DNA of 9,004 nt from the NCBI GenBank assembly GCA_003168295.1, contig PMST01000090.1, positions 28,884-37,887 of the forward strand, written 5' to 3'. Every line of letters begins with the position of its first letter. Within the stretch, counting starts at the first letter, position 1. Below are positions 794 through 9,004 of this stretch, one piece after another. Below the pieces are notes generated by a model, which was not told where the DNA came from, ran no database searches, and worked only from the letters and a program-made list of their open reading frames with translations. The stretch is from Actinomycetota bacterium (GTDB taxonomy: Bacteria > Actinomycetota > Actinomycetes > Streptosporangiales > Streptosporangiaceae). Made by a program: the position numbers and the translations under genes.

Positions 794-1549
794 TTAGGCC
801 GCAATGAGCCGCCGGGACCCAGTCTCCGCAAATCGGTCGAGCAGCACGTCGGCTACCTCGGCGCAGGCGCCGAGGGCGGGGGAGACGGCGGTCGCGCCCG
901 CGGCCAGCGAGGATGCCCTGATCCGGTCGGCGAACAAGCCCGGGGCGAGCAGGTAGGTGGCGACTACAACGCGCGACACCCCGGCCTGAAGCAGGCCGGT
1001 GACCGCCGCCGGCGGCGAGGGATCGGCGGCTGACGCGTAGGCCGGGCGGACCGCGAGCCACCCGGCGCGGTCTTGCCACTGCGCGGCGAGGCGCCCGATG
1101 GTGGCGTTGGCTTCCGGATCGCTCGAGCCCGCCGCCGCCAGCACTACCCCGGTCCGGGCGCGGTCACCGTCGGGGTCCACCTCGGCGAGGCGCCGTTCCA
1201 GCGCGCGCAGCAGCCGCGGGTGCGGCCCGAGCGTATCGCCGTAAGAGACCTGGAGCCGGGGGAAGTCGCTGGCGACCCGGGTCAGCAGGCGAGGGATATC
1301 CGCCTTGGCGTGGTACGCCGCCGTCAGCAGCAGAGGCAGCACCCGCACCCGGCGGCCGGCCTCGATCGTGCTCATGACCTGCGGCAGAGATGGCGGGGCG
1401 TGGCCGAGGTAGGCGGTGCGCACATCCGGTGCGTCCAGCCCCCGCGTGGTCGCCCGCTCGGCCACCATCGCCATCAGCTCTGCGACGGTGGCCGAGGCGC
1501 GCGGATCCTGGCTGCCGTGCGCGACCGCCACCAGGACGGGCTCAGGCAT
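794..1549 (-). CDS. Sirohydrochlorin chelatase, CbiX/SirB family (251 aa)
   Basis: Class II chelatase that inserts Fe2+ into sirohydrochlorin to make siroheme (or Co2+ in cobalamin synthesis). The protein has two CbiX-like halves. The N-terminal half keeps the metal-binding histidines: VAVAHGSQDPRA (His11) and LLLTAAYHAKADIP (His80). The C-terminal half repeats the fold (VVLAAAGSSDPEANA, then VVVATYLLAPGLFADRI) but has Ala140 and Leu201 where histidines would be expected, so only one half looks catalytic, as is usual for the long form. The ATG at 1549 overlaps the end of cysH by 8 bases and has GGAG 10 bases upstream, inside cysH, which implies translational coupling. Placement behind sirA and cysH argues for iron and siroheme rather than cobalt: SirA needs siroheme. 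Metal preference cannot be read from the sequence. Confidence 0.9.
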   Translation of the reverse strand: MPEPVLVAVAHGSQDPRASATVAELMAMVAERATTRGLDAPDVRTAYLGHAPPSLPQVMSTIEAGRRVRVLPLLLTAAYHAKADIPRLLTRVASDFPRLQVSYGDTLGPHPRLLRALERRLAEVDPDGDRARTGVVLAAAGSSDPEANATIGRLAAQWQDRAGWLAVRPAYASAADPSPPAAVTGLLQAGVSRVVVATYLLAPGLFADRIRASSLAAGATAVSPALGACAEVADVLLDRFAETGSRRLIAA

Positions 1550-2273
1550 GTATGCCGCACTCCGTCTTGCCGGTTCCCGCCCACCGCCCGCTGCGCGGGT
1601 CCGCGCCCGGATCTACCCGGATCGTGCAGGTCGAGCAGCCGATCGAGGGATAGCCGTCGTAGACGAGCGGGTTCACCAGCACGCCGTTGGTGGTGATGAA
1701 GTCGTCCACCTGCTTCTGCGTCCAGCTGACGATCGGGTTGACCTTGACCATCTCCCGCCGGTCGTCCCACTCGACGACCTGGGTCTGGCGGCGGACGTTG
1801 GTCTCGTCCCGGCGCACCCCGGTGATCCACGCGTCGTAGTTCGTCAGCGCCCGCTCGAGCGGCTCCACCTTGCGCAGGTAGCAGCACAGGTCGGGGTTGC
1901 GCCCGAACAGCCTCGGCCCGAGCTCGGCGTCCTGCTCCGCCACGGTACGCGAGGGGGTGACGTTGACCAGGTTGACCGGGTAGACGACTCCCACGGCGTC
2001 CCTCGTGCCGATTGTCTCGGCGAAGTGGTAGCCGGTGTCGAGGAAGACCACGTCGATGCCGGGCTGCACGCCCGAGGCCAGGTGGATGATCACCGCGTCC
2101 GTCATGGAGGAGGTGATACAGATCCGCTCACCGAACGTGTCCACCGCCCAGCGAATCACCTCTTCCGCTGGCGCGTCGGCGAGTTCCTCCGCGGCCTGTT
2201 CGGCGAGGGTACGCATGTGCTCGGGGTCCTCCAGGCTGATTTGCGCCAGGCCACGCGATACGACGGGACTCAC
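1542..2273 (-). CDS. cysH: Phosphoadenylyl/adenylyl-sulfate reductase (APS reductase type), 243 aa
   Basis: Reduces activated sulfate to sulfite with thioredoxin as donor. The P-loop-like nucleotide site is around residues 54-62 (TSSMTDAVI). Two cysteine pairs, Cys130-Cys131 (DLCCYLRK) and Cys213/Cys216 (GCSTC), are the [4Fe-4S] ligands that mark APS rather than PAPS reductases. The C-terminal KTECGIHA carries the catalytic cysteine, Cys239. I chose the GTG at 2273, not the ATG at 2321. The GTG has AGGAG exactly 7 bases upstream and overlaps the preceding stop codon as GTGA. The ATG lies inside the upstream small gene and would add 16 residues (MHQNFPATLC...) of non-conserved type. The gene is third in the operon and overlaps the chelatase start by 8 bases. 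The APS-making genes cysD/cysN are not adjacent in this window. Confidence 0.93.
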   Translation of the reverse strand: MSPVVSRGLAQISLEDPEHMRTLAEQAAEELADAPAEEVIRWAVDTFGERICITSSMTDAVIIHLASGVQPGIDVVFLDTGYHFAETIGTRDAVGVVYPVNLVNVTPSRTVAEQDAELGPRLFGRNPDLCCYLRKVEPLERALTNYDAWITGVRRDETNVRRQTQVVEWDDRREMVKVNPIVSWTQKQVDDFITTNGVLVNPLVYDGYPSIGCSTCTIRVDPGADPRSGRWAGTGKTECGIHA

Positions 2274-2416
2274 AGTGTGACTCCTATTCCGGCAAAGCGT
2301 AGCTGGAAAGTTCTGGTGCAACTGCGGCAGTGCCAGTCACCGTCGGTCGCACCCTGTGGTTCAAGGTCTTCCTCGCCGCAGTAGGGGCAGTAGAACGGAA
2401 CGGCCCGGGCGTTCAT
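2270..2416 (-). CDS. Small zinc-ribbon-like protein between sirA and cysH (48 aa)
   Basis: This 48-residue frame is wedged between sirA and cysH. Its ATG overlaps the sirA stop as ATGA, and its TGA overlaps the cysH start as GTGA, so all three are translationally coupled. It contains two Cys-x2-Cys knuckles, YCPYCG (Cys10, Cys13) and HCRSCTRTFQLR (Cys30, Cys33), 16 residues apart. That is a classic four-cysteine zinc ribbon, or possibly a rubredoxin-like or iron-binding site. It has no signal peptide or membrane segment. From memory, streptomycetes carry a small conserved hypothetical protein at the same place between sulfite reductase and cysH; its function is unknown to me. The context suggests a factor for sulfite reduction, such as a redox partner, a cofactor-loading protein or a metal-sensing adaptor. 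This is inference only. Confidence 0.85.
   Translation of the reverse strand: MNARAVPFYCPYCGEEDLEPQGATDGDWHCRSCTRTFQLRFAGIGVTL
2281..2285 (-). promoter_or_regulatory. Ribosome binding site deciding the cysH GTG start
   Basis: AGGAG on the minus strand, 7 bases before the GTG at 2273. It lies within the last codons of the 48-residue small gene. The ATG at 2321 has no comparable site, so this element settles the start. Confidence 0.8.
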
Positions 2417-4101
2417 GAGAGGTCCTGCTCGCTGGCGCGCGCCGTCCAGGACGCGAAGCTCTCGTCCGGCTGCCGGTCGGCATCGAAGCGGCGCAGGACC
2501 CGTTCCACATAGTCGGGCAGGTCCTCGGCGGTGGTCTTGAGCCCTCGCACCTTCTTGCCGAAGCCGGAGGCCTCGCCGTCGCCGCCGCCCAGGCTGCCGC
2601 CAAGATGGATCTGGAAGCCCTCGACCTGCTGGCCGTCAGGCCCGGTGACCAGCGATCCCTTCAGGCCGATGTCAGCGGTCTGGATCCGGGCGCAGGAGTT
2701 CGGGCACCCGTTGACGTTGATCGTGACCGGCGCCTCAAAGCCTGGCAGCCGCCGCTCGAGCTCGCTGATCAGGTCGGCGGCCCGGGCCTTGGTCTCGACG
2801 ATCGCGAGCTTGCAGAACTCGATGCCGGTGCAGGCCATCGTGTGCCGCCGGAAGGCGCTCGGGTTAGCGGGCAGGCCGGCCGCCTCGAGCTCGGCCACCA
2901 GCTCGTCCGTGTTGCCTGGGGGCACGTCGAGGATGACCATCTTCTGCTCGGTGGTGGTGCGCACCCGGCCGCTGCCGTACCTGGCGGCGAGCCCGGCGAT
3001 GACGTCGAGCGCGTCGGCTGACAGCCGCCCTACCGTCGGCGCGAAGCCCACGTAGTAGTTGCCGTCCCGCTGCGGGTGCACGCCCACGTGGTCGCGCACT
3101 CCGCCGCGCGGCGCCGTCGGGGCTGGCCCGTCAGGCAGCGCGTAGCCAAGGTACTCCTTCTCGAGCACCTCGCGGAACCGCTCCGGTCCCCAGTCCGCGA
3201 CCAGGAACTTGATCCGGGCCCGGTGCCGCAGGCGCCGGTAGCCGTAGTCCCGGAACAGCCCGGCCACGCCCGCCCACACCTCGGCGACCTGGCCGGGCCT
3301 GACGAACGTGCCGAGGCGCTTGCCGATCATCGGGTTCGTGGACAGGCCGCCGCCGACCCACAGGTCGTACCCGGTCTCCCCGTTGTCGTTGACCACGCCC
3401 ACGAACGCGATGTCGTTTATCTCGTGGATGGCGCACTGCGCCGCGCAGCCGCTGATCGAGGACTTGAACTTACGCGGCAGGTTGGAGAACGCTGAATCGC
3501 CGATGTAGCGCTCGCCGATGGCAGTGATCTCGGGGGTCGCGTCGATGATCTCGCTTGCGTCGATGCCGGCCAGCGGGCAGCCGAGCATTACCCTCGGGGT
3601 GTCGCCGCACGCCTCGGTCGTGCTCAGTCCCACTGATTCAAGCGCGTCCCAGATGTCAGGCACGTTCTCGATCTCGACCCAGTGCAGCTGGATGTTCTGC
3701 CGGTCGGTCACGTCCGCCGTCCCGCGCGCGTACCGCCGCGAGATATAGCCGATGACGCGCAGCTGGTCGTTGGACAGCTGGCCGCCGTCGATGCGGATCC
3801 GCAGCATGAAGTAGCGGTCGTCAAGCTCTTCCGGCTCGAGCACCGCGGTCTTGCCGCCGTCGATCCCGGGCTTCCGCTGGGTATACAGCCCGTACCAGCG
3901 GAAGCGGCCGCGCAGGTCGGCCGGGTCGATCGAGTCGAAGCCGTTCTTGGAGTAGATGTCGATAATCCGCTGGCGGACGTTGAGCCCGTCGTCGTTACGC
4001 TTGTTTTCTTCGTTCTTGTTAAGCGGCTCGTGATAGCCGAGGGCCCACTGGCCTTCACCGCGCTTGCGTCGAGTCCCGGTGTTGCCTGTTGCGACTGGCA
4101 T
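2413..4101 (-). CDS. sirA: Ferredoxin-dependent assimilatory sulfite reductase (562 aa)
   Basis: Six-electron reduction of sulfite to sulfide using ferredoxin, siroheme and a [4Fe-4S] cluster. The family's two-fold repeat is visible: GRFRWYGLYTQR (66-76), then CGDTPRVMLGCPLAG (165-179), then the cluster ligands Cys424 and Cys430 (ACTGIEFCK) and Cys466 and Cys470 (NGCPNSCARIQ). Tyr73 and Cys165 line up with the Tyr69/Cys161 pair reported as covalently linked in M. tuberculosis SirA (from memory), which favours sulfite over nitrite reductase. The length is normal, about seven residues longer at the N-terminus than the mycobacterial protein. The ATG at 4101 has GAAGGA 10 bases upstream. An unusual extra pair, Cys219 and Cys223 (ISGCAAQCAIHEIND), sits in the first half. 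It is the first structural gene of the operon, 175 bases after a leader peptide, and its stop overlaps the next gene (ATGA). Nitrite reductase is the main alternative. Confidence 0.93.
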   Translation of the reverse strand: MPVATGNTGTRRKRGEGQWALGYHEPLNKNEENKRNDDGLNVRQRIIDIYSKNGFDSIDPADLRGRFRWYGLYTQRKPGIDGGKTAVLEPEELDDRYFMLRIRIDGGQLSNDQLRVIGYISRRYARGTADVTDRQNIQLHWVEIENVPDIWDALESVGLSTTEACGDTPRVMLGCPLAGIDASEIIDATPEITAIGERYIGDSAFSNLPRKFKSSISGCAAQCAIHEINDIAFVGVVNDNGETGYDLWVGGGLSTNPMIGKRLGTFVRPGQVAEVWAGVAGLFRDYGYRRLRHRARIKFLVADWGPERFREVLEKEYLGYALPDGPAPTAPRGGVRDHVGVHPQRDGNYYVGFAPTVGRLSADALDVIAGLAARYGSGRVRTTTEQKMVILDVPPGNTDELVAELEAAGLPANPSAFRRHTMACTGIEFCKLAIVETKARAADLISELERRLPGFEAPVTINVNGCPNSCARIQTADIGLKGSLVTGPDGQQVEGFQIHLGGSLGGGDGEASGFGKKVRGLKTTAEDLPDYVERVLRRFDADRQPDESFASWTARASEQDLS

Positions 4102-4800: not shown

Positions 4801-5100
4801 TCAGGCGGCGTTCGCGCGCCGCATCCGACGGCGGCGCTCGGCCGAACGCTCATCCTCGTTCAGGCCGCCCCACGTGCCGTACTTCTCCGGCCGCGAGACA
4901 GCGTAGTTCAGGCATTCAAGCCGCACCGGGCAAGCAGCGCAAACCCCCTTGGCCTTGCGCTCCCTGATCTCCCGCTCGGGCTGACGCTCACCGTCAGGAC
5001 CGAAGAAGAGCAACAGGTCTTCGCCACGGCACGCGGCAGCATCCTGCCAACCCCAGTTCGGGCGGGGAAGCACAGCCGACTGCCGACGTACCTGAGACAT
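4801..5100 (-). CDS. WhiB-like iron-sulfur transcriptional regulator (99 aa)
   Basis: Small actinobacterial redox- or NO-sensitive regulator that holds a [4Fe-4S] cluster and usually works by binding the housekeeping sigma factor. The four ligands are Cys24, Cys54, Cys57 and Cys63 (C-x29-C-x2-C-x5-C), with ACRGEDLLLFF at the first and CAACPVRLEC around the rest. The glycine-rich turn GTWGG (75-79) and the acidic NEDER follow. A basic tail (RRRRMRR) ends the protein, as in DNA-contacting Wbl proteins. It lacks the AT-hook of WhiB7 and the extra C-terminal domain of WblA/WhiB4, so I do not assign a subfamily. The ATG at 5100 is fixed by a strong binding site (GAGGTGAT, 6 bases upstream). The gene is monocistronic, with its own terminator, and diverges from the low-complexity protein gene across a 373-base shared control region. 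Confidence 0.95.
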   Translation of the reverse strand: MSQVRRQSAVLPRPNWGWQDAAACRGEDLLLFFGPDGERQPEREIRERKAKGVCAACPVRLECLNYAVSRPEKYGTWGGLNEDERSAERRRRMRRANAA

Positions 5101-5106
5101 GGATCA

Positions 5107-5114
5107 ATCACCTC
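5107..5114 (-). promoter_or_regulatory. Strong ribosome binding site of the whiB-like gene
   Basis: GAGGTGAT matches eight consecutive bases of the Shine-Dalgarno complement of the 16S 3' end, 6 bases before the ATG at 5100. This predicts efficient translation and fixes the start. Confidence 0.8.
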
Positions 5115-5191
5115 AACCAAGATGCATCAAATAGTGCGTTACAGTGGAGCGTCAGGCTCTTAACACGCAACCAGACCCTGTCCGGAACCTC

Positions 5192-5208
5192 CGTTGCAAG
5201 ATACAACG
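5192..5208. promoter_or_regulatory. 17-base palindrome in the divergent control region
   Basis: CGTTG and CAACG arms flank a 7-base centre, with two further symmetric matches inside, giving the pattern CGTTGnA nnn TnCAACG on one strand. It lies about 90 bases upstream of whiB. The dyad suits a dimeric regulator; the protein is unknown. Confidence 0.35.
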
Positions 5209-5432
5209 CGTCTTTGTTACGTGGTGTTCCCGTACGCAGGTGCGTCGATCTCGTAAGCAAGCGGTCACTATACCGAACGGCTAGCGGTAGCTGCCGGTTC
5301 ACCCGTCCTGCTACCCGTCACGCAAGCCTCTGCATGCCCGTCGACCATGATGCCACCTGCGGTAGCAGTCTTGCACGCGGGGTGGCTAAATTCCCTACCT
5401 GAATTCCAGCCGGCAGCTAGCCTGCTTGCAGG

Positions 5433-5445
5433 GTTCGTGACGAAC
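5433..5445. promoter_or_regulatory. 13-base palindrome upstream of the low-complexity protein gene
   Basis: GTTCG TGA CGAAC is a perfect dyad with 5-base arms, 28 bases before the start codon at 5474. It could be an operator covering the transcription start, or a small hairpin in the 5' UTR. Confidence 0.35.
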
Positions 5446-5456
5446 TGGACAAAGGG

Positions 5457-5463
5457 AAAGGAG
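5457..5463 (+). promoter_or_regulatory. Ribosome binding site of the low-complexity protein gene
   Basis: AAAGGAG lies 10 bases before the ATG at 5474. A second in-frame ATG at 5483 is 19 bases away, too far, so 5474 is preferred. Confidence 0.75.
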
Positions 5464-5473
5464 CCAGGCCACG

Positions 5474-7480
5474 ATGGGCTCCATGTCAGCGTCGGACGCA
5501 GCGCCGCTGCCGCGGCTCGGCGAGGTTTTCTTCGACGTGCGCGGTAGCTCCCGCAGCATGCGGTTGAGTTGGTATGCCGACACCGGGGTCTCGGTTTTCA
5601 GTATCTGGCAGGGAGGCACCTGTACCGGCACCTTCCGGCTCCCGATGGAGGAGCTGCCGAGGCTGGTCGATGCCTTGCAGCGAGGGATGCAGGGCGCCGA
5701 CCAGCAAGACCCACGCGGTAACGCGGGCTACCTGAACCAGCTCCCCGGTGCCCCGACCGACCCGAGGCTGACCGCGCTTCCCGGCGGTTACGCCGGCCGC
5801 GACACCGACTTCACTGGTCCGGTGACCGGTGATTTCCGTGCGCTGCGGTCCGAAGATCCGGGCGGTACGGTCGTGTTCAGTCCGGTATCCCCGCGAGCGC
5901 TTCCCCCTGGCCCGGCAGCCCTGTCCGCGCCGACGCCGTCGCAAAGCGCCCAGGACTATCTCGAGAATTTCTCCGCGCAGTATCCGGCGCAGCAGTACCC
6001 GGAGCAGCACCGGCCTGGGCGCCGCCGCCTGCCCGCCGCCGAGGGCTATGCCGATACGACCCGCTACCAGAGTTCCCTGCCCGGGACCGGCTATCCCGAC
6101 CAAGGGCAGTACCCTCAGCAAGCCCAAGGCCAGTCCTACGGCGGGCCGGGGTACGCCAGCCAGGGCTACGGTGCCCAGCAGGGCCGCGAGTACGCCGAGC
6201 GCGGGTACGCGGGCCGGGAAGCTGAGTACGGATACGCCGACCAGGGGTACGCCGACCAGGGTTACAGCGATCAGGGGTACAGCGGCCAGGGCTACACCGA
6301 CGAGGGGTACAGCGGCCAGGGCTACAGGCGGTCGGCGGAGAGCGGTCAACCTGCTCTTGAGGAGGGCGATCGGGCTTACCCCGCTTCGCAGTATTCGGGA
6401 TCTTCTTATCCCGAGCCTTCCTATACCGGGCCCCAGTACTCTGACCCGCAGTACCCTGCCGACCCTCAGTACTCCGAGGCTCAGTACTCGGGTCCCCAGT
6501 ACTCTGACCCGCAGTACCCTGCCGACCCTCAGTACTCCGGGCCTCAGTACTCCGGGCCCCAGTACTCTGACCCGCAGTACCCTGCCGACCCTCAGTACTC
6601 CGAGGCTCAGTACTCCGAGCCTCATCGATACCCGGAGCCCCAGCACTCTGGGTCTCGGTACGCCGAGCCTTCATACCCTGGGCCCTCACCCTCGGGCCAG
6701 CAGTACGACGGGCCTTATCCCGGTCAGGGCTACGGCGATGGCATGTACTCCGGTCAGAGCCAGGACAGCGGGGCTTATCCCAGTCGCGGGTACGACGACC
6801 GGGGACAGGCCGAGCAGAGTTATCAGCGTCAGGATTACCAGGGCCAAAACCAGGAGTATCAGGGGCAGCAAAGCCAGGAGTATCAGGGACAGGCAGCCCG
6901 GCCAGAGCAGGGATACGGCGGTCACGGACACGCCGAGCAAGGTAGCCAGCGCATCCAGGGAAATGAAAGCCGCGGGCCTGCGGTCATCGAAAATTTCGAG
7001 GGGAACCAGGTCTTCGCGGGTTCTCAGGGCTCGGCCGGTTATCCGGGGTCGCAGTACGGTGACCAGGGCTACCAGGAGCCCGGCTACCAGGAAAACGCTG
7101 GTCAGGCCTATCCGGATCAGGGATACGCCGACGGGCACGGATACGCCGGGCAGGACTATCCCAGCCAGAGCCCGGGTCAGCCCTACGGCGCGCACGGTGA
7201 CTCCGCCCCGTCCTATCAGGACCAGGGATACAGCACCTTCGGATACGGCGGGCGGGACCGGACTGGCTACGAGAACCCCGGCGGCTACGAGGAGCGCGGT
7301 TATGACGGTGACGGGGGACAGCCTGGCGGGTACCGCGAGCTTGCCCCTGGCCGCGGCGGGCGCGGCCAGTATCCGGATCCCGATCCCGAGAGCACCGCTA
7401 ACCAGCAGCCCGTTTCCTCTTTTCCCTACGAAGGAGATCCGCCTTCGCGCCGGGAACACAGGCGGCGTCGCGGGCGTTAG
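5474..7480 (+). CDS. Hypothetical protein: small globular N-terminal domain plus long Tyr/Gln/Gly/Pro-rich disordered tail (668 aa)
   Basis: Function unknown. Residues about 13-72 look folded and conserved in style (LGEVFFDVRG, MRLSWY, VSVFSIWQGG, GTFRLPMEELPRLVDALQRG). The pattern of several beta strands followed by one helix resembles PC4/YdbC-type single-strand nucleic-acid-binding domains; this is inference. The remaining roughly 590 residues are low complexity. They include a GY-[AST]-[DG]-[QE] pentapeptide array (253-284), a QYS/DPQYP array with three 21-residue repeats (about 320-382), YQGQ-type repeats (455-473), further GY repeats, and a basic end (RREHRRRRGR). By hand count there are about 71 tyrosines, one cysteine (Cys50) and no lysine. 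There is no signal peptide or membrane segment. Regular [G/S]Y spacing recalls FUS-type condensate-forming domains. The gene is divergent from whiB, and hairpins follow its stop. Confidence 0.85.
   Translation: MGSMSASDAAPLPRLGEVFFDVRGSSRSMRLSWYADTGVSVFSIWQGGTCTGTFRLPMEELPRLVDALQRGMQGADQQDPRGNAGYLNQLPGAPTDPRLTALPGGYAGRDTDFTGPVTGDFRALRSEDPGGTVVFSPVSPRALPPGPAALSAPTPSQSAQDYLENFSAQYPAQQYPEQHRPGRRRLPAAEGYADTTRYQSSLPGTGYPDQGQYPQQAQGQSYGGPGYASQGYGAQQGREYAERGYAGREAEYGYADQGYADQGYSDQGYSGQGYTDEGYSGQGYRRSAESGQPALEEGDRAYPASQYSGSSYPEPSYTGPQYSDPQYPADPQYSEAQYSGPQYSDPQYPADPQYSGPQYSGPQYSDPQYPADPQYSEAQYSEPHRYPEPQHSGSRYAEPSYPGPSPSGQQYDGPYPGQGYGDGMYSGQSQDSGAYPSRGYDDRGQAEQSYQRQDYQGQNQEYQGQQSQEYQGQAARPEQGYGGHGHAEQGSQRIQGNESRGPAVIENFEGNQVFAGSQGSAGYPGSQYGDQGYQEPGYQENAGQAYPDQGYADGHGYAGQDYPSQSPGQPYGAHGDSAPSYQDQGYSTFGYGGRDRTGYENPGGYEERGYDGDGGQPGGYRELAPGRGGRGQYPDPDPESTANQQPVSSFPYEGDPPSRREHRRRRGR
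6230..6325 (+). repeat. 15-bp (pentapeptide) repeat array, six copies
   Basis: Six consecutive pentapeptides of the form GY-[A/S/T]-[D/G]-[Q/E], then a final GY, cover residues 253-284 of the low-complexity protein. At DNA level the units are near-identical (for example GGTACGCCGACCAGG), differing mostly at third positions. This suggests slippage growth followed by drift. Confidence 0.85.
6431..6619 (+). repeat. 63-bp tandem repeat, three copies, in frame
   Basis: Units 6431-6493, 6494-6556 and 6557-6619 share an identical first 45 bases (beginning CCCCAGTACTCTGACCCGCA) and differ at only a few bases in the last 18. Each encodes 21 residues of the type PQYSDPQYPADPQYS plus six more. The near-identity, third codon positions included, points to recent duplication or ongoing homogenisation. 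Confidence 0.92.
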
Positions 7481-8082: not shown

Positions 8083-9004
8083 CTACTCCCTGAGCAGGGG
8101 CAGCGCCGCGAGCGTGGTGATGCCGCAGAGGACACCGGCGATGACGTACGGGGCGCGCAGGCCGGCCAGGTGCGCGACGAGGCCGCCGGCCACCGCGCCG
8201 GCCGGCATGAGGCCCCAGCCGATCATGCGGTAAGCGCTGTTGACCCGGCCGAGCATGTCGTTCGGCACGATGCGCTGGCGCAGGGTGACCGTGACGATGT
8301 TCCACATCGTGACCGCGAAGCCGTTGCCCACCTCAAGCGCTGCCAGCACCGGCGCGTTGGGCGCGAGCCCGATGCCGACGTAGATGACGGACACCGCGCC
8401 CATCGCGATGACCAGCGATGGCACCTGGCCCAGGCGGCGGGTCAGCCACGGGTTCAGCAGGCTGCCGAGCACGCTGCCGACGGCGGCGGCCGCTAGCAGG
8501 ATCCCGTAGTAGCGGCTGCTCACCTTCAGCGTCTCGGTCACCAGCAGTACCAGCGTGGCCATGCCCATCGTGTTGCAGAAGCTGCTCACGCCGAGGACGA
8601 CGGCGACGACGCGAAGCAAGCGGTTGCCCAGCAGCCAGCGGAGCCCTTCGGCGACCCGGGAGCGGACCGTGCCGTCAGGGACCGTGTCCGGCGGGTGCTT
8701 CGGCAGCCGGGCGAGCAGCGCAGCTGACCCGGCGAACGAAGCCGCGCTGACGCCGAACAGCACCGCTGCCGCGGCGGCGGTGAACAGCAGGCTGCCGAGC
8801 GGCGGTCCGGCGAACTCCTGGCCGATGGTCTGCACGGCGTACTGATTGCCGTTGGCCGCTGGCAGCTGTTCAGCCCGGACCAGCTGCGGGAGCACCGACT
8901 GCGACGCGTTGCTGAACACGACTTCGCCGGCGCCGAGGCCGAACGCGGCGACCGCGAGCACGGCGATGTCCGTCCGGTCGAGGAGGACAAGGACCGCGAG
9001 GACG
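8083..9004 (-). CDS. MFS transporter, C-terminal 306 residues (truncated by window edge)
   Basis: Integral inner-membrane exporter of the major facilitator superfamily, in the branch that includes EntS-like siderophore and macrolide exporters. The frame runs through to the window edge (VLAVLVLLDRTDIAVLAVAA...), so the apparent GTG start at 8961 is internal and roughly the first 100 residues are missing. Visible family signatures are LPQLVRAEQLPAANG followed by GPPLGSLLF, a central basic loop (RLPKHPPDTVPDG), and in the second half VPNDMLGRVNSAYR followed by GAVAGG. Hydrophobic segments alternate with short basic loops through to the C-terminal LPLLRE. The substrate cannot be inferred, and no partner genes are visible. 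It is convergent with the low-complexity protein gene. Confidence 0.9.
   Translation of the reverse strand, partial: VLAVLVLLDRTDIAVLAVAAFGLGAGEVVFSNASQSVLPQLVRAEQLPAANGNQYAVQTIGQEFAGPPLGSLLFTAAAAAVLFGVSAASFAGSAALLARLPKHPPDTVPDGTVRSRVAEGLRWLLGNRLLRVVAVVLGVSSFCNTMGMATLVLLVTETLKVSSRYYGILLAAAAVGSVLGSLLNPWLTRRLGQVPSLVIAMGAVSVIYVGIGLAPNAPVLAALEVGNGFAVTMWNIVTVTLRQRIVPNDMLGRVNSAYRMIGWGLMPAGAVAGGLVAHLAGLRAPYVIAGVLCGITTLAALPLLRE

Follow-up and report, generated by a model that had tools for sequence, protein, structure and literature searches.

The 9,004-nucleotide stretch of Actinomycetota bacterium DNA analysed here (the window; positions 28,884 to 37,887 of contig PMST01000090.1, assembly GCA_003168295.1) carries an open reading frame (ORF) whose product joins a small N-terminal domain, the head, to a very long tail that is rich in tyrosine and free of lysine. 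There is about an even chance that this protein is a nucleic-acid-binding hub that works as SSB does on a fold other than that of SSB, with condensation as a possible consequence. The counts given by the original prediction (668 residues, zero lysine, about 71 tyrosines and a single cysteine) are exact at 668, 0, 71 and 1, and are accompanied by 45 Arg, 43 Asp and 38 Glu. The frame of the ORF is genuine and the observation is confirmed, since orthologues share the head and have tails of like make-up. Met4 (the second ATG, at 5483) may be the true start because position 1 is Ile, which has no start codon, in 5 of the 21 rows of alignment A1 that have a letter there, while Met4 is almost invariant.

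Composition, family spread, predicted fold, conserved face, motif and neighbours were computed; nucleic-acid binding, dimerisation, docking and self-association are inferred. In the proposed mechanism, a head of PC4/PUR type, probably as a dimer, would hold single-stranded DNA (ssDNA) or RNA, which would be contacted by the face of the sheet bearing the invariant Arg, Trp, Phe and Cys. The long, disordered and acidic tail, rich in Tyr and poor in Lys and Cys, would bear a docking motif (TG[ED][FYR]) and, often in this clade, a C-terminal [FH]PY patch, and would recruit a partner. Weak Tyr-Tyr and Tyr-Arg contacts between tails may gather bound copies into local assemblies. The protein is a natural test case for the idea that bacterial nucleic-acid assemblies immune to pupylation can be built from spaced Tyr in the absence of Lys. 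The original interpretation as a whole is partly supported; it did not include the caspase fusions, the gene neighbours, the conserved motif of the tail or the breadth of the family.

Predicted fold of the head

The head (residues 11-76) has no Pfam or NCBIfam family above cut-off. Its AlphaFold2 model consists of four strands and a helix, with a pLDDT of 84.5 across 80 residues, and 22 of the best 25 rows returned by VIA-align for this model are nucleic-acid-binding folds of the PC4/Sub1, PUR-alpha, Whirly or MRP1/2 type. The head had originally been described as PC4-like. This holds for the predicted fold and does not imply family membership, since 42 heads matched no PC4 model and no PUR model at E up to 10. 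Foldseek alone gave 752 matches to the head model at E up to 10, none of them at or below 0.001. The head profile also matched PknD and the designed 'Pizza' propellers; these matches arose from weak copies of a hairpin-like pattern summed over repeats and were dropped for the fold result.

Residues R30, V41, S43, W45, C50 and F54 are invariant in the 42 heads and probably lie on the face of the sheet opposite the helix, the faces being assigned from strand ends and hairpin register rather than from model coordinates. W45, F54 and R30 on this putative face are compatible with the mode of PC4, which binds ssDNA on its concave face through stacking aromatics. For the whole ORF, the Pfam scan was empty at E up to 1 and PADLOC gave no match. 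Its sole NCBIfam match, the Elgicin lantibiotic (E 0.013, with 15.5 bits where the cut-off is 40), is a chance match of low-complexity sequence.

Composition, spacing and motifs of the tail

The make-up of the tail was followed in two sets of relatives. The locus set, consisting of the window and 30 loci, gives 29 tails of at least 100 aa; L009 and L017, with shorter tails, fall outside these, L007, L011, L021 and L027 are among them and are cut by contig ends, and L031, at 35% identity, was excluded from the relatives. In the 10,964 residues of these 29 tails there are 8 Lys, 677 Arg, 992 Tyr and 1 Cys, Lys making up 1.2% of Lys+Arg; 25 tails are free of Lys and all 29 are net acidic. The protein set came from a search with residues 1-80 that found 660 proteins (eligible lengths about 0.55-1.75 times 668 aa), the best 120 of which were used. 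Five of the resulting 121 proteins (the window's included) were omitted because the head is not near the N-terminus or the tail is below 100 aa. Of the 116 left, 13 with tail Tyr below 5% were omitted as well. The 103 Tyr-rich tails that remain, again with the window's, hold 67 Lys and 3538 Arg; 62 are free of Lys and 100 are net acidic. The 13 Tyr-poor proteins (P0005, P0007, P0010, P0036, P0037, P0050, P0061, P0092 and others) have the same head, and their tails are often Arg-rich. These tails may be assembly frameshifts, which would give Arg-rich sequence, or genuine frame changes.

The absence of Lys from a single protein is weak evidence, since a 400 kb sample of the genome of Trebonia kvetii holds 185 crudely called ORFs of at least 250 aa, 7 of which are also Lys-free, but scarcity across a family is strong evidence. 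In the same 400 kb, Lys/(Lys+Arg) is 0.171 for the crude ORFs and 0.115 for low-hydrophobic segments, 24 of 72 of which are Lys-free. The genes neighbouring the head gene give 0.147 (whiB), 0.168 (cysH), 0.242 (reductase) and 0.040 (chelatase), the last showing that an ordinary enzyme can run low in Lys too. Lys scarcity alone is already known for pupylating actinobacteria: PMC10665810 reports lysine deserts to be commonest in Actinobacteria, with 35.4% of the S. coelicolor proteins analysed. In view of that report and of the Lys-free ORFs and segments of Trebonia, the scarcity of Lys in the tail is real but of a known kind. The rare part is the density of Tyr, which reaches 11.7% in the window tail and 7% in none of the 185 Trebonia ORFs. 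The original remark that a protein without Lys would be invisible to pupylation is relevant to the window protein because Pup was found in the genomes of 3 of 4 relatives; escape itself is a prediction.

The regular spacing claimed for Tyr is present in one respect. The gap is exactly 5 for 35 of the 69 consecutive Tyr pairs of the window tail (mean 5.0 and maximum 14 in 5000 shuffles), but by coefficient of variation the gaps as a whole are not more even than those of shuffles, 7198 of 10000 being as even or more. Between orthologues the tail sequence drifts, yet low Lys and high Tyr are kept, and the commonest gap is 5 or 6 in 10 of 14 tails of at least 300 aa. The residue preceding Tyr in the window protein is Gly in 28 cases, Gln in 19 and Ser in 6 of 71, so the [G/S]Y unit, proposed as a FUS-like grammar, covers only 34. 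The 'basic arginine tail' applies to the last 15 residues (net +5), whereas the tail and the protein are net acidic, with 45 Arg against 81 Asp+Glu. Because of this acidity and the minority of Tyr that follow Gly or Ser, 'FUS-like' is an analogy, and 'FUS-like with arginine' overstates the likeness.

These results bear on an alternative in which the protein is a condensate scaffold, its FUS-like Tyr-rich tail phase-separating alone while the head brings nucleic acid and the lack of Lys protects from pupylation. Although half of the Tyr gaps are exactly 5, the Tyr density is without equal among the sampled Trebonia ORFs, Lys is scarce across the 29 tails and Pup is present in 3 of 4 relatives, this alternative is rather unlikely. 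The tail is net acidic, many wider members have a tail with less than 5% Tyr or almost no tail, Lys deserts are common anyway in Actinobacteria (PMC10665810), and assembly is a prediction.

The tail of the hub proposed above would dock a partner, and the tails of the head family keep one short motif that predicts such a partner. Of 30 wider-family tails of at least 40 aa, 28 carry TGE[YFR] (shuffles 0.17); TG[ED][YF] is present in 76 of the 103 close tails (shuffles 2.8), with 50 places lying 40-59 residues into the tail, although the shuffle tests overstate the number of events because related sequences are not independent. The motif is not retained in every lineage, since only 5 of the 29 locus-set tails carry TG[ED][YFR] (shuffles 1.0, at most 5). 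At the other end of the tail, [FH]PY lies inside the last 45 residues of 84 of the 103 close Tyr-rich tails, and 46 of the 103 have a net charge of at least +3 over their last 12 residues.

Relatives, gene neighbourhood and caspase-like fusions

The head defines an unnamed domain family, with a predicted PC4/PUR-like fold, that is spread through Actinomycetes. The scan of species genomes gave 31 loci with 30 counted relatives, all actinobacterial by title and Trebonia kvetii among them. A profile of the 42 heads found 4095 short proteins (the best 120 of which were listed) among 7992 candidates scored. Profile searches for the head match at least 61 of 394 genomes drawn from the class and at least 161 of 297 drawn from the order, with one match each, and the head is present in at least 9 of 396 genomes of a phylum-wide draw; the tallies and copy numbers are lower bounds because at most 14 candidates per genome (class and phylum draws) or 19 (order draw) were scored. 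In all 4 relatives in which every candidate was scored there is one head match per genome. A wider member from Nonomuraea gerenzanensis (402 residues, 48% identity over the head) adjoins a DinG-like helicase and an antiporter-like gene. The plasmid collection held one matching record, that of N. gerenzanensis (11.85 Mb), with no listed features around the match, and a phage search for the head gave no match. No paper on the family was found in the literature searched, in which coverage of subscription journals is poor, and absence from print is not claimed.

In the window clade, whiB is divergent from the head gene in 28 of 30 loci, which are all of the testable ones, since the sequence upstream is just 15 and 154 bases long in the other two. 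At 23 of the 30 there is a cysH match. The only Cys of the window gene is invariant, and the gene adjoins whiB and sulfur-assimilation genes (cysH, nitrite/sulfite reductase and CbiX-type chelatase) in this clade. In 42 wider loci, taken from the top of the score list and therefore no random sample, the neighbours include a DinG-like helicase (18), an antiporter-like gene (16), an Fpg/Nei glycosylase (11), an AAA_16 ATPase (10), a metallophosphoesterase (10) and YccF (5). Pfam identified DEAD, Fpg, AAA_16, metallophosphoesterase and YccF domains in one example of each of the five types other than the antiporter; 'DinG-like' and 'antiporter-like' are labels given in this analysis. Since neighbour types follow clades, they amount to a small number of contexts, and two of these have to do with the repair or unwinding of DNA.

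Two arrangements recur outside the window clade. Other actinobacteria (L038, L040, L055, L057, L058 and L060-L064) have a conserved trio of Fpg/Nei glycosylase, stand-alone short head protein and AAA_16 ATPase. Longer-tailed head proteins (L042-L054, L056, L059, L087-L089 and L091) lie beside a DEAD-type (DinG-like) helicase, most of them also beside an antiporter-like gene, and their tails end near TGERLRPE-like motifs. The features of the window are listed in Table 1; the Rfam scan found no family at threshold and the tRNA search found none.

Table 1. Coordinates of the ORF, its parts and its neighbours in the window
Feature	Position	Strand	Remarks
Whole ORF	5474..7480	+	668 aa
Head, residues 11-76, predicted beta4-alpha domain, PC4/PUR-like fold	5504..5701	+	42-head alignment, AlphaFold2, VIA-align
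Stretch with R30, V41, S43, W45, C50, F54	5561..5635	+	Invariant in 42 heads
VTGDFR, residues 117-122, copy of tail motif TG[ED][FYR]	5822..5839	+
Tandem repeats, 15-base period and multiples	5977..6685	+	Give five-residue Tyr spacing
C-terminal patch SSFPY...RREHRRRRGR, residues 648-668	7415..7477	+	Last 15 residues net +5
whiB/ORF intergenic region	5101..5473		Short blocks invariant in 8 relatives, e.g. ~5205-5209, ~5225-5231
WhiB transcription factor, divergent neighbour	4801..5100	-	Pfam Whib E 1.2e-22; closest solved relatives WhiB3, WhiB1
Nitrite/sulfite reductase	2413-4101	-	Pfam/NCBIfam scan of window
Phosphoadenylyl-sulfate reductase (cysH)	1542-2321	-	Pfam/NCBIfam scan of window
CbiX-type chelatase-like gene	794-1549	-	Pfam/NCBIfam scan of window
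MFS transporter, far side of ORF from whiB	8083-8961		Pfam/NCBIfam scan

The family also links the predicted PC4/PUR-like domain to caspase-like effectors. Four caspase-like proteins (P0002, P0003, P0033 and P0122) each end in two heads, and among the matches listed (120 of 196) only in these does the local alignment cover more than 85% of the tandem region. Of the three scanned with Pfam, P0003 has the caspase domain (E 3.9e-13), P0033 has it just below cut-off (21.0 bits against 21.4), and P0002, which is 47% identical to P0003 in the alignment, has none at E 0.01. P0122 aligns closely with P0033. The His-Gly and Asp-Cys-Cys stretches expected of caspase-like peptidases are present in P0003, P0033 and P0122, and P0002 looks degenerate. 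The PADLOC 'caspase' model matches P0003 weakly (E 4.4e-6). ABM-like repeats occur in P0033 (Pfam ABM) and in P0122 (precomputed annotation). A model of P0003 built from four sequences has a mean pLDDT of 47.4, too poor to show how the two heads pack. Either the caspase-like proteins sense the same nucleic acid as the core protein or heads bind heads.

The latter would fit an adaptor domain that binds heads or a protein partner instead of nucleic acid and recruits the peptidase in the manner of effector-associated domains (EADs), through whose homotypic contacts caspases and other effectors are linked to cores (PMC8195603). This is distinctly unlikely in spite of the four tandem-head proteins, since the same paper describes EADs as multi-copy and mostly helical (9 of 12), whereas the 4 fully scored relatives have one head match per genome and the head is sheet-rich, and since almost all of the best fold rows (22 of 25) belong to folds that bind nucleic acid. 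It is highly unlikely that the tail is a neutral spacer, a functionless but tolerated product of slippage of 15-base units in a high-GC gene: the 15-base tandem arrays, tails that have 0-24 residues in some wider members and more than 1100 in Trebonia, and a codon-position test showing no clear third-position or synonymous-change excess within the window repeats would suit it, but high Tyr with Lys and Cys near zero is kept in 29 diverged tails, which also applies in the family to the C-terminal patch and to TG[ED][FYR]. A broader proposal, and a long shot, is that the family is a new actinobacterial group of PC4/PUR-fold sensors of ssDNA or RNA, whose core member would be a Lys-free, Tyr-rich condensate hub beside the WhiB gene, perhaps redox-tuned through the invariant Cys50 on the putative binding face, and whose tandem heads would arm caspase-like peptidases, with that nucleic acid or condensate recruiting or triggering them.

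Comparison with known systems

The likeness of the head to the EADs of bacterial conflict systems is that of a small non-catalytic domain fused to caspase-like proteins; it differs in being sheet-rich and apparently in having one core copy per genome (in 4 relatives, the genomes of the caspase fusions lying outside the search). There is no difference in principle from the lysine deserts of pupylating actinobacteria, as the long Lys-free stretch is kept in orthologues (25 of 29 tails) and Pup is present in 3 of 4 relatives, but the window tail adds an extreme Tyr content to what PMC10665810 describes. PC4/Sub1 proteins (human PC4, MoSub1, Burkholderia BPSL1147 and phage T5 PC4) resemble the head in their fold of beta-sheet and helix. 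The sheet of PC4 is five-stranded (PMC4350104) whereas four strands are predicted for the head, no sequence model matched, and in the window protein the head is followed C-terminally by a very long tail.

The PUR-alpha repeat, with four strands and a helix, has the same fold as that predicted for the head, but there is no sequence-model match and identity to the best PUR row is 6%. A PUR domain consists of two packed repeats; the window protein has a single head, and tandem heads occur in the four caspase-like relatives, for which the P0003 model is poor. FUS/FET low-complexity domains share with the window protein a dense and spaced set of Tyr in a disordered tail. Their phase separation is driven by Tyr and Arg, and the likeness of the window protein in this respect is one of composition. 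FUS/FET proteins have an RRM and a zinc finger beside the Tyr-rich region, whereas the window ORF has neither (Pfam, E up to 1) and its tail is net acidic.

In its proposed way of working the protein resembles E. coli SSB, in which a nucleic-acid-binding head (here a predicted one) is followed by a disordered linker and a short conserved docking element. The head of SSB is an OB fold, whereas the head of the window protein is modelled as beta4-alpha and matches no SSB model in Pfam. SSB is reported to condense and to recruit partners through its tip (PMC12143593, PMC11947617 and PMC10164576); in the head family, the candidate docking motif TG[ED][FYR] lies inside the tail or near its end.
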